Of a DNA stretch of 39,777 nucleotides, positions 36,524-39,456 are shown piece after piece. Below the pieces are notes generated by a model. That model saw nothing but the letters and a program-made list of their open reading frames with translations, was not told the origin of the DNA and searched no databases. This DNA comes from Balneolaceae bacterium. Lineage in GTDB: Bacteria; Bacteroidota; Rhodothermia; Balneolales; Balneolaceae. The translations under genes and the position numbers were made by a program. The stretch's first letter is position 1; each line of letters opens with the position of its first letter. The stretch lies in assembly GCA_007693745.1 (NCBI GenBank), contig REDA01000028.1:1-39777 (forward strand), in the 5' to 3' direction.

Positions 36524-36742
36524 ATGGATACAACACTTTCTATTCGCATCGATAAAGATCTTGAAGAACTTCTTGAACAGGCTGCCAGGCGAACCGGCCG
36601 CCCTAAAAGTGAACTTGTTCGGGAAGCCTTGCGACGGCAGTTATCGATCGAGTCATTTCAACAGCTCCGCAAAAAGCTTCTGCCTTATGGGGAAGCTCAA
36701 GGTTGGCTTACGGATGAGGATGTTTTTCGTGAAGTTTCATGA
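36524..36742 (+). CDS. Ribbon-helix-helix (CopG-type) antitoxin
   Basis: A 72-residue DNA-binding antitoxin. MDTTLSIRIDKDLEELLEQAARRTGRPKSELVREAL is split here as strand (TTLSIRID), helix (DLEELLEQAARRTG) and helix (RPKSELVREALRRQL), the classic RHH pattern. The C-terminal tail (YGEAQGWLTDEDVFREVS) should bind the toxin. I use the ATG at 36524; a GTG at 36491 is in frame but adds an unlikely leader. A PIN toxin gene follows after 87 bp. Confidence 0.88.
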   Translation: MDTTLSIRIDKDLEELLEQAARRTGRPKSELVREALRRQLSIESFQQLRKKLLPYGEAQGWLTDEDVFREVS

Positions 36743-36829: not shown

Positions 36830-37231
36830 ATGAAGATATTTACCGACACGAATGTATTGGTCAGTGCCTTTACTGCAAGAGGGTTGTGTGCAGATCTGCT
36901 TGAAGTCATACTTTCTGATCATCAACTGATGACTGGAGAAGTCGTTTTAGATGAGCTAAGACGTGTATTGACTACAAAGCTCAACGTTCCCGAAAAAGAT
37001 GTTTCTGAAGTCATTCAATTTCTGCGTGGCTATCATGTAGAACCTATGCCCGAAAAACCGTCTGGAATAATAGTGAGGGATGAAGACGATCAATGGGTAC
37101 TGGAATCAGCGATACAGGCAAAAGCTGACATATTGATTACAGGGGATAAAGACCTTTTGGTTATATCAAAAAATGTACCGGGACTAAGGATTACCACGCC
37201 CCGAAAATTTTGGGAGCTGCTGAAAAAGTAG
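36830..37231 (+). CDS. PIN-domain toxin (putative TA system ribonuclease)
   Basis: A 133-residue PIN-domain protein of the kind annotated as a toxin-antitoxin PIN family. The acidic active-site residues expected for a Mg-dependent RNase are visible: Asp in IFTDTNVLVSAF (residue 5), Glu in LDELRRVL near 42, and two Asp in ILITGDKDLLVI near 103-105. Its partner is the RHH antitoxin upstream. The RNA target is unknown. The pair lies at the border of the accessory-looking right end. Confidence 0.9.
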   Translation: MKIFTDTNVLVSAFTARGLCADLLEVILSDHQLMTGEVVLDELRRVLTTKLNVPEKDVSEVIQFLRGYHVEPMPEKPSGIIVRDEDDQWVLESAIQAKADILITGDKDLLVISKNVPGLRITTPRKFWELLKK

Positions 37232-37576: not shown

Positions 37577-37650
37577 GGTCCGGTAGTTCAGTTGGTTAGA
37601 ACGCCTGTCCCGATTACTCGGGAAGGTCGAAGGTTCTCGCCGGGAGTAAA
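37577..37650 (+). pseudogene. tRNA-Asp-like copy with anticodon arm replaced (copy A)
   Basis: The acceptor 5' strand and D arm are identical to the genuine tRNA-Asp 89 bp downstream. The anticodon arm is then replaced by the palindrome TCCCGATTACTCGGGA (37608-37623). The T arm is degenerate and no pairing acceptor 3' strand follows. It cannot fold into a working tRNA. Confidence 0.8.
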
Positions 37651-37665
37651 AGAATTTGAAATAGT

Positions 37666-37739
37666 GGTCCGGTAGTTCAGTTGGTTAGAACGCCTGCCTG
37701 TCACGCAGGAGGTCGAGGGTTCGAGTCCCTTCCGGATCG
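37666..37739 (+). tRNA. tRNA-Asp (GUC anticodon)
   Basis: A full cloverleaf. The acceptor GGTCCGG pairs with CCGGATC (one G-U), and the D stem is GTTC/GAAC. The anticodon stem CCTGC/GCAGG has loop CTGTCAC, reading anticodon GTC. The T arm is GAGGG-TTCGAGT-CCCTT, where the outer pair is G-U-type, and the discriminator base is G. CCA is not encoded. It is followed 5 bp later by an intrinsic terminator that also belongs to a 178-bp tandem repeat. Confidence 0.96.
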
Positions 37740-37744
37740 CAAGA

Positions 37745-37777
37745 GGCTGCTCATATTGATTATGGGCAGCCTTTTTT
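37745..37777 (+). terminator. Intrinsic terminator after tRNA-Asp
   Basis: Eleven-base arms (GGCTGCTCATA / TATGGGCAGCC, one G-T pair) around a 5-base loop, followed by six T residues. It terminates the tRNA-Asp transcript. Confidence 0.92.
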
Positions 37778-37818
37778 GTTTTATGAAATGGGTAAGATTG
37801 TCTAACTATGGTCTTACT

Positions 37819-37863
37819 ATGCATCATTTCAATATTCTTCATTCCGGTAGCTGGGTTGGTTAG
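37819..37863 (+). pseudogene. GIY-YIG gene 5' remnant 1
   Basis: An ATG-initiated 14-codon reading frame, MHHFNILHSGSWVG, resembles the start of the intact gene (MHHLYVLHSKS) and stops inside the tRNA-like copy. An 11-bp stretch upstream of its ATG is absent from the intact version. Confidence 0.6.
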
Positions 37864-37917
37864 AACGCCTGTCCCGATTACTCGGGAAGGTCGAGGGTTC
37901 GAGTCCCTTCCGGATCG
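37842..37917 (+). pseudogene. tRNA-Asp-like copy with anticodon arm replaced (copy C)
   Basis: The T arm and acceptor 3' strand are identical to tRNA-Asp. The acceptor 5' end and D arm are altered (GTTCA changed to GCTGG, so the D stem is lost), and the anticodon arm is the palindrome TCCCGATTACTCGGGA at 37872-37887. It is not a functional tRNA. Confidence 0.8.
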
Positions 37918-37922
37918 CAAGA

Positions 37923-37955
37923 GGCTGCTCATATTGATTATGGGCAGCCTTTTTT
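37923..37955 (+). terminator. Terminator, second repeat copy
   Basis: An identical copy of the hairpin and T-tract at 37745-37777, carried by the 178-bp repeat. Confidence 0.88.
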
Positions 37956-37996
37956 GTTTTATGAAATGGGTAAGATTGTCTAACTATGGTCTTACT

Positions 37997-38041
37997 ATGC
38001 ATCATTTCAATATTCTTCATTCCGGTAGCTGGGTTGGTTAG
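37997..38041 (+). pseudogene. GIY-YIG gene 5' remnant 2
   Basis: An identical second copy of the 14-codon remnant at 37819, displaced by 178 bp. Confidence 0.6.
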
Positions 38042-38095
38042 AACGCCTGTCCCGATTACTCGGGAAGGTCGAGGGTTCGAGTCCCTTCCGGATCG
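38020..38095 (+). pseudogene. tRNA-Asp-like copy with anticodon arm replaced (copy D)
   Basis: The same chimera as the copy at 37842, displaced by exactly 178 bp, with the palindrome at 38050-38065. Confidence 0.8.
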
Positions 38096-38163: not shown

Positions 38164-38433
38164 ATGCATCATCTCTATGTTCTTCATAGCAAATCATTAG
38201 ACAGATATTATGTGGGTCAGACAAAACAGGTTGAGAATAGACTGATCAAGCATAACAAAGGTCATTCAAGAGCTACAAAGGGTGGGATTCCGTGGGATTT
38301 GGTATTCAGCGTCTCTTTTAAAAGCAAAACAGAATGCCTCCGTGCGGAGAACTGGCTGAAGAAAATGAAAAGCCGCGTAATTGTTGAGCAGGTAATCAAC
38401 GGAGAGCTTGACCTGATGGATGTAATAAAGTGA
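38164..38433 (+). CDS. Small GIY-YIG nuclease-domain protein
   Basis: An 89-residue single-domain protein of the UvrC/homing-endonuclease-like GIY-YIG fold. The signature is LYVLHSKSLDRYYVGQT (residues 4-20), followed by the conserved Arg/His region VENRLIKHNKGHSRAT and the WDLVFSVSF strand. The Glu near residue 62 (LRAENWLKKMKSR) fits the metal-binding position. Short members of this kind occur as stand-alone genes in many bacteria without a proven role. The start codon coincides with the edge of the 178-bp repeat, and two damaged copies of its 5' end lie upstream. It converges with the integrase gene (63 bp). Confidence 0.88.
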   Translation: MHHLYVLHSKSLDRYYVGQTKQVENRLIKHNKGHSRATKGGIPWDLVFSVSFKSKTECLRAENWLKKMKSRVIVEQVINGELDLMDVIK

Positions 38434-38496: not shown

Positions 38497-39456
38497 TCAC
38501 CTATCCAGCGGGCTTTTTACGCCTTTACCTCCCCGGTTTAGCACATGCGTGTAAATCATTGTGGTCTTAACACTATTATGGCCGAGCAGATCCTGTACTG
38601 TACGAATATCATAACCGTTCTTCAGCAAGTGAGTTGCAAAGGAATGCCGAAATGTGTGTGGGGTGACATGTTTTTGGATGTCTAAATTATTAATGGATCT
38701 GCTAACGGCTCGCCGTACATCACGCTGTGAAACATGGTACCTGTGGTGAACACCTGATCGTGGATCAACCGATCTTTTTTTAGATGGAAACAGATATTGC
38801 CATCGCAATTCTTTCGAAGCGTTTGGGTACTTCCGTGAAAGTAAATTCGGCAGAATAGTGCCTCCATAGCCCTTATTCAAATCATTTTTATGAAGTATTT
38901 TCACTTTTCCAATTTGTTTTTGAATTGGATGGATTAATGACTCCGGCAGCATGGTTACCCTGTCCTGTAAACCCTTTCCATTACGAACCGTAATCTGCCT
39001 GTAGGTTAAATCAATATCCAGAATTCTGAGCCTCAGAGCTTCAGAAATTCGCAGCCCTGAACCGTAGAGCAGACTCACAACCAGGCTGGGCACTCCTTCC
39101 AGTAATTGAATGACCGATATCGCCTCCCGCTCTGTTAGAACAACAGGGAGTCTTTTAGGTTTTTTTGCCCTTTTCAGTTTGTCTAGGTGTAGCAGTGGTT
39201 GACTGAGTATGTGGGAATAAAGAAACACAATGGCCGATAATGCCTGATTTTGAGTAGATGCAGCTACATTAAGATCATTTGCCAGATAGTTCAGATAGTC
39301 AACTACATCCTTCTCCGTCAGATATTTTGGATGAGTGAGGCCATGATACCGTACAAATCTGACAATCCACTGAGAGTAGGTTTTCTCTGTGCTGTAGCTA
39401 TAATTTCTACGCCTAATCTCTTCTTTAAGCCGGGTTAATAATTTCTTCTCATTCAT
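38497..39456 (-). CDS. intI: Integron-type integrase (IntI-family tyrosine recombinase)
   Basis: A site-specific recombinase. The core-binding domain covers about residues 1-100 and the catalytic domain the rest. Catalytic residues are Arg in GSGLRISEALRLR, His-x-x-Arg in PHTFRHSFATHL, His in LLGHNSVKTT and the nucleophile Tyr in MIYTHVLNRGG. Between them lies the segment diagnostic of IntI rather than XerC/D: LPNLLSRKYPNASKEL and WQYLFPSKKRSVDPRSG, aligning to the extra helix region of class 1 integrase. The end RGGKGVKSPLD is also IntI-like. At 319 residues it is intact. In integrons the attI site and cassettes lie on the 5' side of intI, which here is the right edge of the window. Confidence 0.92.
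   Translation of the reverse strand: MNEKKLLTRLKEEIRRRNYSYSTEKTYSQWIVRFVRYHGLTHPKYLTEKDVVDYLNYLANDLNVAASTQNQALSAIVFLYSHILSQPLLHLDKLKRAKKPKRLPVVLTEREAISVIQLLEGVPSLVVSLLYGSGLRISEALRLRILDIDLTYRQITVRNGKGLQDRVTMLPESLIHPIQKQIGKVKILHKNDLNKGYGGTILPNLLSRKYPNASKELRWQYLFPSKKRSVDPRSGVHHRYHVSQRDVRRAVSRSINNLDIQKHVTPHTFRHSFATHLLKNGYDIRTVQDLLGHNSVKTTMIYTHVLNRGGKGVKSPLDR

Follow-up and report, generated by a model that had tools for sequence, protein, structure and literature searches.

Described systems resembling the locus

The nearest system with experimental tests is SegB, a free-standing GIY-YIG homing endonuclease encoded by T-even phages. It is reported to cleave inside tRNA genes and to drive tandem amplification of a [tRNA + segB] unit by means of microhomology that the 5′ end of the tRNA shares with the 3′ end of segB (PMC13096335). 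The position of a GIY-YIG nuclease gene adjoining tRNA genes is shared by this system (PMC13096335) and by the DNA analysed here, which is a stretch of 39,777 nucleotides from a Balneolaceae bacterium (contig REDA01000028.1) that we call the window. Here too, the 3′ end of the nuclease gene is fused to tRNA sequence, the units occur in tandem, and an intact tRNA stands in front. The motif RAWTSGAAC reported for SegB also appears to be the reverse complement of T-loop sequence, near the piece that is swapped in the tRNA-Gly and tRNA-Asp copies described below. However, the units considered here are chromosomal, and their nuclease is about 90 amino acids long and has no match in the phage collection searched. 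The spare tRNA copies are probably disabled rather than being additional functional tRNAs. The exchange of a tRNA arm for a hairpin likewise has no counterpart in the accessible part of the SegB paper.

Other systems share single features with the locus. The UPF0213 proteins and related small GIY-YIG proteins also consist of one GIY-YIG domain, and the solved structures nearest to the nuclease are 1zg2 (E value of 1.7e-6) and 1ywl; we know of no tie between such proteins and tRNA genes or palindromes. Integrative elements with tyrosine integrases likewise insert at tRNA genes, keep an intact tRNA, and create a partial repeat at the other border. In contrast, the unit at this locus carries no recombinase, is often shorter than 400 bp, and has a partial copy in which one arm is swapped. 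The REP sequences associated with RAYT (Y1) transposases are short palindromes dispersed in bacterial genomes, as is the palindrome described here, but the latter is not beside Y1 genes at 23 of 24 loci and shows a strong association with tRNA copies. Double-hairpin elements and other mobile palindromes of fungal mitochondria are short GC-rich hairpins that invade tRNA-rich genomes. They belong to another domain of life, and to our knowledge they have no fixed layout of nuclease and tRNA copy.

Chimeric tRNA-Asp copies in the window

The only tRNA detected in the window by ARAGORN and Rfam is a tRNA-Asp(GUC), and it lies among three tRNA-Asp-like copies (chimeras A, C, and D), as the first-pass annotation had recognized. 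In each chimera, a 13-nucleotide piece of the anticodon arm, CCTGTCACGCAGG, is exchanged for the 16-nucleotide palindrome TCCCGATTACTCGGGA (TCCCGA-TTAC-TCGGGA) exactly between GCCTG and AGGTCG, and the flanking tRNA bases are retained, again as originally described. When both strands of the window were searched for TCCCGATTACTCGGGA with up to three mismatches, seven matches were found compared to 0.31 expected from shuffling, and none of 100 shuffles of the window reached this count. The features of the array, all on the plus strand, are as follows.

37577-37636 (+): chimera A; tRNA-Asp positions 1-30 followed by the palindrome (37608-37623) and by positions 44 to about 57, with the 3′ end lost
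37666-37740 (+): intact tRNA-Asp(GUC) (ARAGORN; Rfam RF00005, 70.7 bits)
37710-38065 (+): two identical 178-bp tandem units (repeat search)
37743-37778 (+): Rho-independent terminator-like hairpin and T-run, 3′ of the intact tRNA (from the sequence); repeated behind chimeras C and D
37819-37842 (+): truncated GIY-YIG ORF start, first 24 nucleotides, fused to chimera C (comparison with 38164 onward)
37843-37917 (+): chimera C, near full-length tRNA-Asp copy; palindrome at 37872-37887
37997-38020 (+): second truncated GIY-YIG ORF start, fused to chimera D (from the sequence)
38021-38095 (+): chimera D, same as chimera C; palindrome at 38050-38065
38164-38433 (+): GIY-YIG nuclease ORF, full copy, 89 amino acids (Pfam PF01541, E value of 9.8e-12, 45.5 bits against a curated cut-off of 22.6)

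Several details of the original description require revision. Chimera A had been taken for a 5′ half, which holds for positions 1-30 and for the missing 3′ end, but tRNA sequence resumes after the palindrome. Chimeras C and D are not 3′ halves. Rather, they begin at tRNA position 3, reach the 3′ end, and show a few changes in the D arm, and chimera C can be folded into a cloverleaf with a lengthened anticodon arm. The substitution is indeed precise and recurrent, but it does not represent three independent events. The segments 37710-37887 and 37888-38065 are identical, and each comprises the 3′ part of the tRNA, its terminator, the first 24 nucleotides of the GIY-YIG ORF, and the 5′ part of a chimera. 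Chimeras C and D therefore reflect one substitution event that was amplified, and at most two events occurred in the window.

The full copy of the GIY-YIG gene has no spare tRNA behind it. The window is best read as an array of a tRNA-resident GIY-YIG mobile unit that is partly decayed, because two of its units retain just the start of the nuclease gene. Rfam reports only tRNA in the window and in ten array loci, and the tRNA is uninterrupted, which gives no indication of a group I or group II intron.

Two neighbours of the array were also noted. A PIN-domain protein (PF13470) is encoded at 36830-37231 on the plus strand, behind a short antitoxin-like ORF ending near 36742, and these two genes probably form a toxin-antitoxin pair. 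On the other side, an integron integrase gene (TIGR02249, 434 bits) occupies 38497-39456 on the minus strand, approximately 60 bp behind the GIY-YIG gene. The contig ends 321 bp past the start of this gene, and a cassette array may lie beyond the contig end. Fifteen tRNA-Asp loci from relatives yielded no match to this integrase, and the gene is best taken as a neighbour of the array.

Recurrence in relatives and at other tRNA genes

The first-pass annotation had pointed to related genomes and to other tRNA genes as places where the arrangement might recur, and it is present in both. DNA searches and inspection of loci revealed tRNA-Asp chimeras adjoining the intact gene in numerous congeneric species and also in further families within the order. 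Their six-base stem does not vary among these relatives, whereas the four-base loop varies by species. Several Asp loci are arranged as chimera A, intact tRNA-Asp, GIY-YIG gene, and chimera C, as exemplified by locus L090 on a 592-kb contig of genome G005. Other Asp copies (L011, L015, L039, L040) carry the palindrome in place of the D-loop or the T-loop, and parts of tRNA-Arg, tRNA-Asn, and tRNA-Gly copies are likewise replaced by it. The window's own genome includes a tRNA-Arg(ACG) copy (L083) whose entire anticodon arm is replaced. In another genus, a tRNA-Asn is flanked by palindrome-bearing tandem copies with the GIY-YIG gene last (L058), which is the same plan as that of the window. In addition to tRNA-Asp, the tRNA genes at which the layout recurs are those for Val, Ala, Lys, Pro, Gly, Asn, Ile, and Arg.

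The recurrent order consists of an intact tRNA, a terminator, a GIY-YIG gene of about 90 codons, and a spare tRNA of the same isotype in which one arm is exchanged for a hairpin. This layout is found across Bacteroidota, with a few examples in Chlorobiota, Acidobacteriota, and Nitrospirota, and tandem arrays of the unit are common. A pattern scan of genome contigs, seeded on a TCCCGA hairpin with a tRNA T-arm behind it, yielded at least 119 stretches, mostly from Bacteroidota and representing many isotypes. For most Bacteroidota matches, an intact tRNA is located approximately 370-400 bp upstream and a GIY-YIG ORF approximately 250 bp upstream on the same strand. Matches to class II tRNA-Ser genes (L106, L121, L140, L145, L171, L175) were set aside as they look like ordinary variable arms.

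A second search was independent of the hairpin and used the nuclease protein alone as query. The nuclease was found in 86 of 198 genomes of the phylum, often as tandem copies 317-360 bp apart, and nearly all nuclease ORFs in the fetched loci lie behind a tRNA and are followed by a fragment of that tRNA. This set comprises 54 nuclease domains, part of which (L286-L297) were chosen since their nuclease matches formed arrays. An intact tRNA is present within 1.5 kb upstream for 33 of them, and 27 of these 33 have a fragment of the same tRNA directly downstream. When all nuclease genes with an upstream tRNA were pooled, the downstream fragment scored at least 35 against its own tRNA in 54 of 66 cases, compared to 33 of 330 comparisons with other isotypes and two of 62 with sequence located 500-750 nucleotides further on.

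The swapped arm and its hairpin

The swapped piece corresponds exactly to the 17-nucleotide anticodon arm in Ala, Arg, Ile, Lys, Pro, and Val copies. In Gly copies, and in Asp copies outside the window's genus, it is CGAGTTCG of the T-arm. When spare copies were anchored on the 3′ part of the tRNA only, a stem of at least 6 bp was found immediately to the left in 20 of 26 cases, compared to 2.7% of shuffles and to seven of 26 cases when the corresponding position of the intact tRNA was examined. The hairpin is mostly TCCCGA-n-TCGGGA, and lineage variants remain paired (TCCCGC/GCGGGA, CCCCGA/TCGGGG, TTCCGA/TCGGAA), while Pro lineages carry a TGGCGC/GCGCCA stem. Both the sequence and the position of the hairpin track the nuclease lineage. 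The recurrence of one hairpin across isotypes fits a component that travels with the unit, with the caveat that copies are also dispersed outside tRNAs. The earlier suggestion that the palindrome targets the anticodon arm is thus borne out in its link to tRNA genes, but it is too narrow with respect to position given the D-loop and T-arm swaps and the many non-tRNA sites. At loci L247, L069, and L016, further mini-hairpins such as TCCGTCAACCGACGGA and CCGTCGGCTGACGG are located in or near tRNA copies, which suggests that there is more than one hairpin family.

The GIY-YIG nuclease

Among 65 sequences, the residues that we take to be catalytic from the known GIY-YIG motif are strongly conserved (Y5, 0.95; Y16, 1.0; G18, 0.98; R26, 1.0; E62, 0.97). 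The nuclease is under purifying selection, with dN/dS values of 0.04-0.23, including between copies of one array. Its stop codon often lies within tRNA sequence, either as the TAG of TAGCTC or of GGTTAG (the latter in the D-loop), or within the hairpin loop.

In a tree of 64 nuclease domains, the isotype label changes 21 times compared to 43.2 times after shuffling, and none of 200 shuffles was as low, a clustering in which vertical descent and site specificity are not separated. Gly units form one branch, as do Lys units, and a single supported group unites six of the eight Pro rows, which come from four families. A pair of Asn units spans Bacteroidota and Chlorobiota. The Asp units of the window's genus, which have the anticodon-arm swap, and those of other families, which have the T-arm swap, occupy different branches. 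Because the tree is based on an alignment of just 77 columns and its clustering is inflated by near copies, it provides support, not proof, for site-specific lineages.

A proposed mobile unit at tRNA genes

Two comparisons of occupied and empty sites demonstrate that the unit has been gained or lost at tRNA genes. At tRNA-Gly, genome G119 is empty and G102 is occupied, and their downstream flanks are 96.5% identical over 1126 bp. In the empty genome, the shared flank restarts 20 nucleotides past the tRNA, whereas in the occupied genome it restarts past the hairpin. At tRNA-Val, the upstream flanks and the next Val-Tyr tRNA genes align between G215 and G386/G393, but the gap between the two Val genes is approximately 1.06 kb with two nuclease genes in G215 and approximately 85 bp without a nuclease gene in G386/G393. 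The right border differs among occupied sites.

We favour the explanation that the chimeras are spare tRNA copies belonging to a small GIY-YIG nuclease unit resident at tRNA genes, with a probability of roughly 0.7. By analogy, the best reading is that this unit would work like the tRNA-linked phage nuclease SegB. The nuclease might cut tRNA genes that do not carry the unit, or folded tRNA DNA, and repair from an occupied copy would then insert the unit while a functional tRNA is retained upstream of it. Tandem arrays such as the 178-bp repeat in the window could arise when tRNA copies recombine unequally. The hairpin probably disables the spare tRNA copy. Its insertion might strip the cut site or the fold from this copy, and might also prevent the copy from being read as a tRNA. 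The first-pass annotation had likewise raised a cutting-type mechanism, and a nuclease does belong to the layout, although the neighbouring GIY-YIG gene had been overlooked. Several observations are not readily accommodated by the mobile unit. Palindrome-bearing tRNA copies occur upstream of the intact tRNA with no nuclease gene between them (L063, L336, L337), and the intact tRNA persists beside the nuclease without an evident protective change. The missing spare tRNA behind the window's full nuclease gene, the varying right border, and the dispersal of the palindrome outside tRNAs, with a copy number that tracks Y1 transposase genes, also count against it.

A broader proposal, to which we would give slightly less than even odds, is that these units constitute an undescribed class of autonomous DNA element of approximately 320-400 bp that carries one GIY-YIG gene and homes into tRNA genes across Bacteroidota and beyond, with an occasional switch of isotype. 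The working tRNA would be rebuilt upstream, and a whole arm of the displaced copy would be replaced by a conserved hairpin as self-immunity or as a boundary mark. Searches of an open-access subset of the literature turned up no account of such an element. If the mobile-unit explanation holds, the tRNA genes of a large phylum harbour a mobile unit that has been overlooked and is compact enough to be studied completely, and its hairpin offers a natural example of a precise hairpin-for-hairpin exchange in DNA. The unit would also be a chromosomal counterpart to SegB-driven tRNA amplification, and it would be likely to cause false tRNA calls, tRNA pseudogenes, and the breaking of contigs beside tRNA genes.

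Alternative explanations

An unlikely, but not negligible, alternative is that separate processes coincide at these loci: tRNA genes duplicate in tandem and then degenerate, the GIY-YIG gene is carried along as a passenger, and a REP-like palindrome, perhaps moved by a Y1 transposase, settles in the dispensable copies. In the window's genus, the palindrome is present in 4-59 copies per genome compared to 0-2 for a reversed control, it occurs in 30 distinct contexts outside tRNAs, and the majority of copies in G005 and G014 are at non-tRNA sites. These many sites indicate an independent dispersed palindrome or several sources. Palindrome copy number also correlates with the number of Y1 transposase genes (rho of 0.60) more strongly than with that of GIY-YIG genes (rho of 0.41), and two near-identical Y1 transposase loci (L382, L383; G005 C21) are flanked by CTGTCG-TCCCGC-ATG-GCGGGA-CTTG repeats with a related stem, which are likely a REP/RAYT pair. 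However, the TCCCGA-N4-TCGGGA palindrome itself flanks just one of the 24 Y1 loci examined, and we therefore rejected RAYT/REP as its source, since copy numbers correlate but adjacency is absent. No Y1_Tnp match was found in the window's genome. The swaps end exactly at the arm borders in the same manner in many families, and the hairpin follows the nuclease lineage, as with the TGGCGC/GCGCCA stem of Pro units. Nor is the palindrome scattered without any link to tRNAs, which would have undermined the original observation. It is dispersed outside tRNAs in the genus, but tRNA-like sites hold four of six copies in the window's genome, three of nine in G011, and at least nine of 45 in G014, while tRNA genes make up, by our estimate, approximately 0.1% of a genome. 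The non-tRNA palindromes (L298-L337) are often preceded by GAGCCTG and are embedded in G/C-rich repeats; the idea that dispersed copies are always at the tip of longer hairpins was discarded as not significant (p = 0.085).

We consider it improbable that the spare copies are leftover att repeats of integrative elements whose tyrosine recombinases use the 3′ half of a tRNA as the attachment site. In G011 (L091, 4185-9133), an exact repeat of the 3′ half of tRNA-Asp stands in front of the GIY-YIG gene at a distance of approximately 4.9 kb from the intact tRNA-Asp, and the stretch between them is likely an integrative element with the same tRNA as its attachment site. The integron-type integrase behind the window array could be read in the same way, but its protein has no match at the 15 other tRNA-Asp loci. 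Moreover, the repeated unit lacks a recombinase, the GIY-YIG ORF is the sole gene in units of 317-360 bp, and att repeats are identical sequences rather than arm swaps. There is similarly little reason to think that the chimeras are themselves functional, either as tRNA-like RNAs or as folded DNA sites kept for their shape, for instance as attC sites used by the adjacent integron integrase. The compensatory changes that keep the stems paired and the cloverleaf fold of chimera C are compatible with this possibility. However, the folding energies of chimeras A and C are no better than those of shuffled sequences (z of 0.08 and -0.51), and many copies are truncated. The attC idea was rejected because no integron integrase was found at 15 other loci, including those that bear the same chimeras, and by inspection the boxes are imperfect, with proper RYYYAAC/GTTRRRY sequences absent. 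An assembly artefact created by repeats in a draft genome is very improbable. The genome is split into 100 contigs, one of which is the window, and contigs of several relatives end in these arrays. In general, however, the recurrence of the layout in many genomes speaks against such an origin, as it is found within long contigs, including that of 592 kb in G005, and in genomes assembled as single contigs of 3.3-3.7 Mb (G295, G336, G337).

Related arrangements

Sequences resembling parts of the proposed nuclease unit were noted elsewhere. Among viral contigs, 12 match the pattern of a hairpin followed by a T-arm, and one of these (L343) also has a GIY-YIG match. In G003 (L095, 5245-5790), five tandem copies of approximately 101 bp, each derived from the 3′ part of tRNA-Asp with the T-arm swapped, lie directly behind a tRNA-Asp without a nuclease gene.
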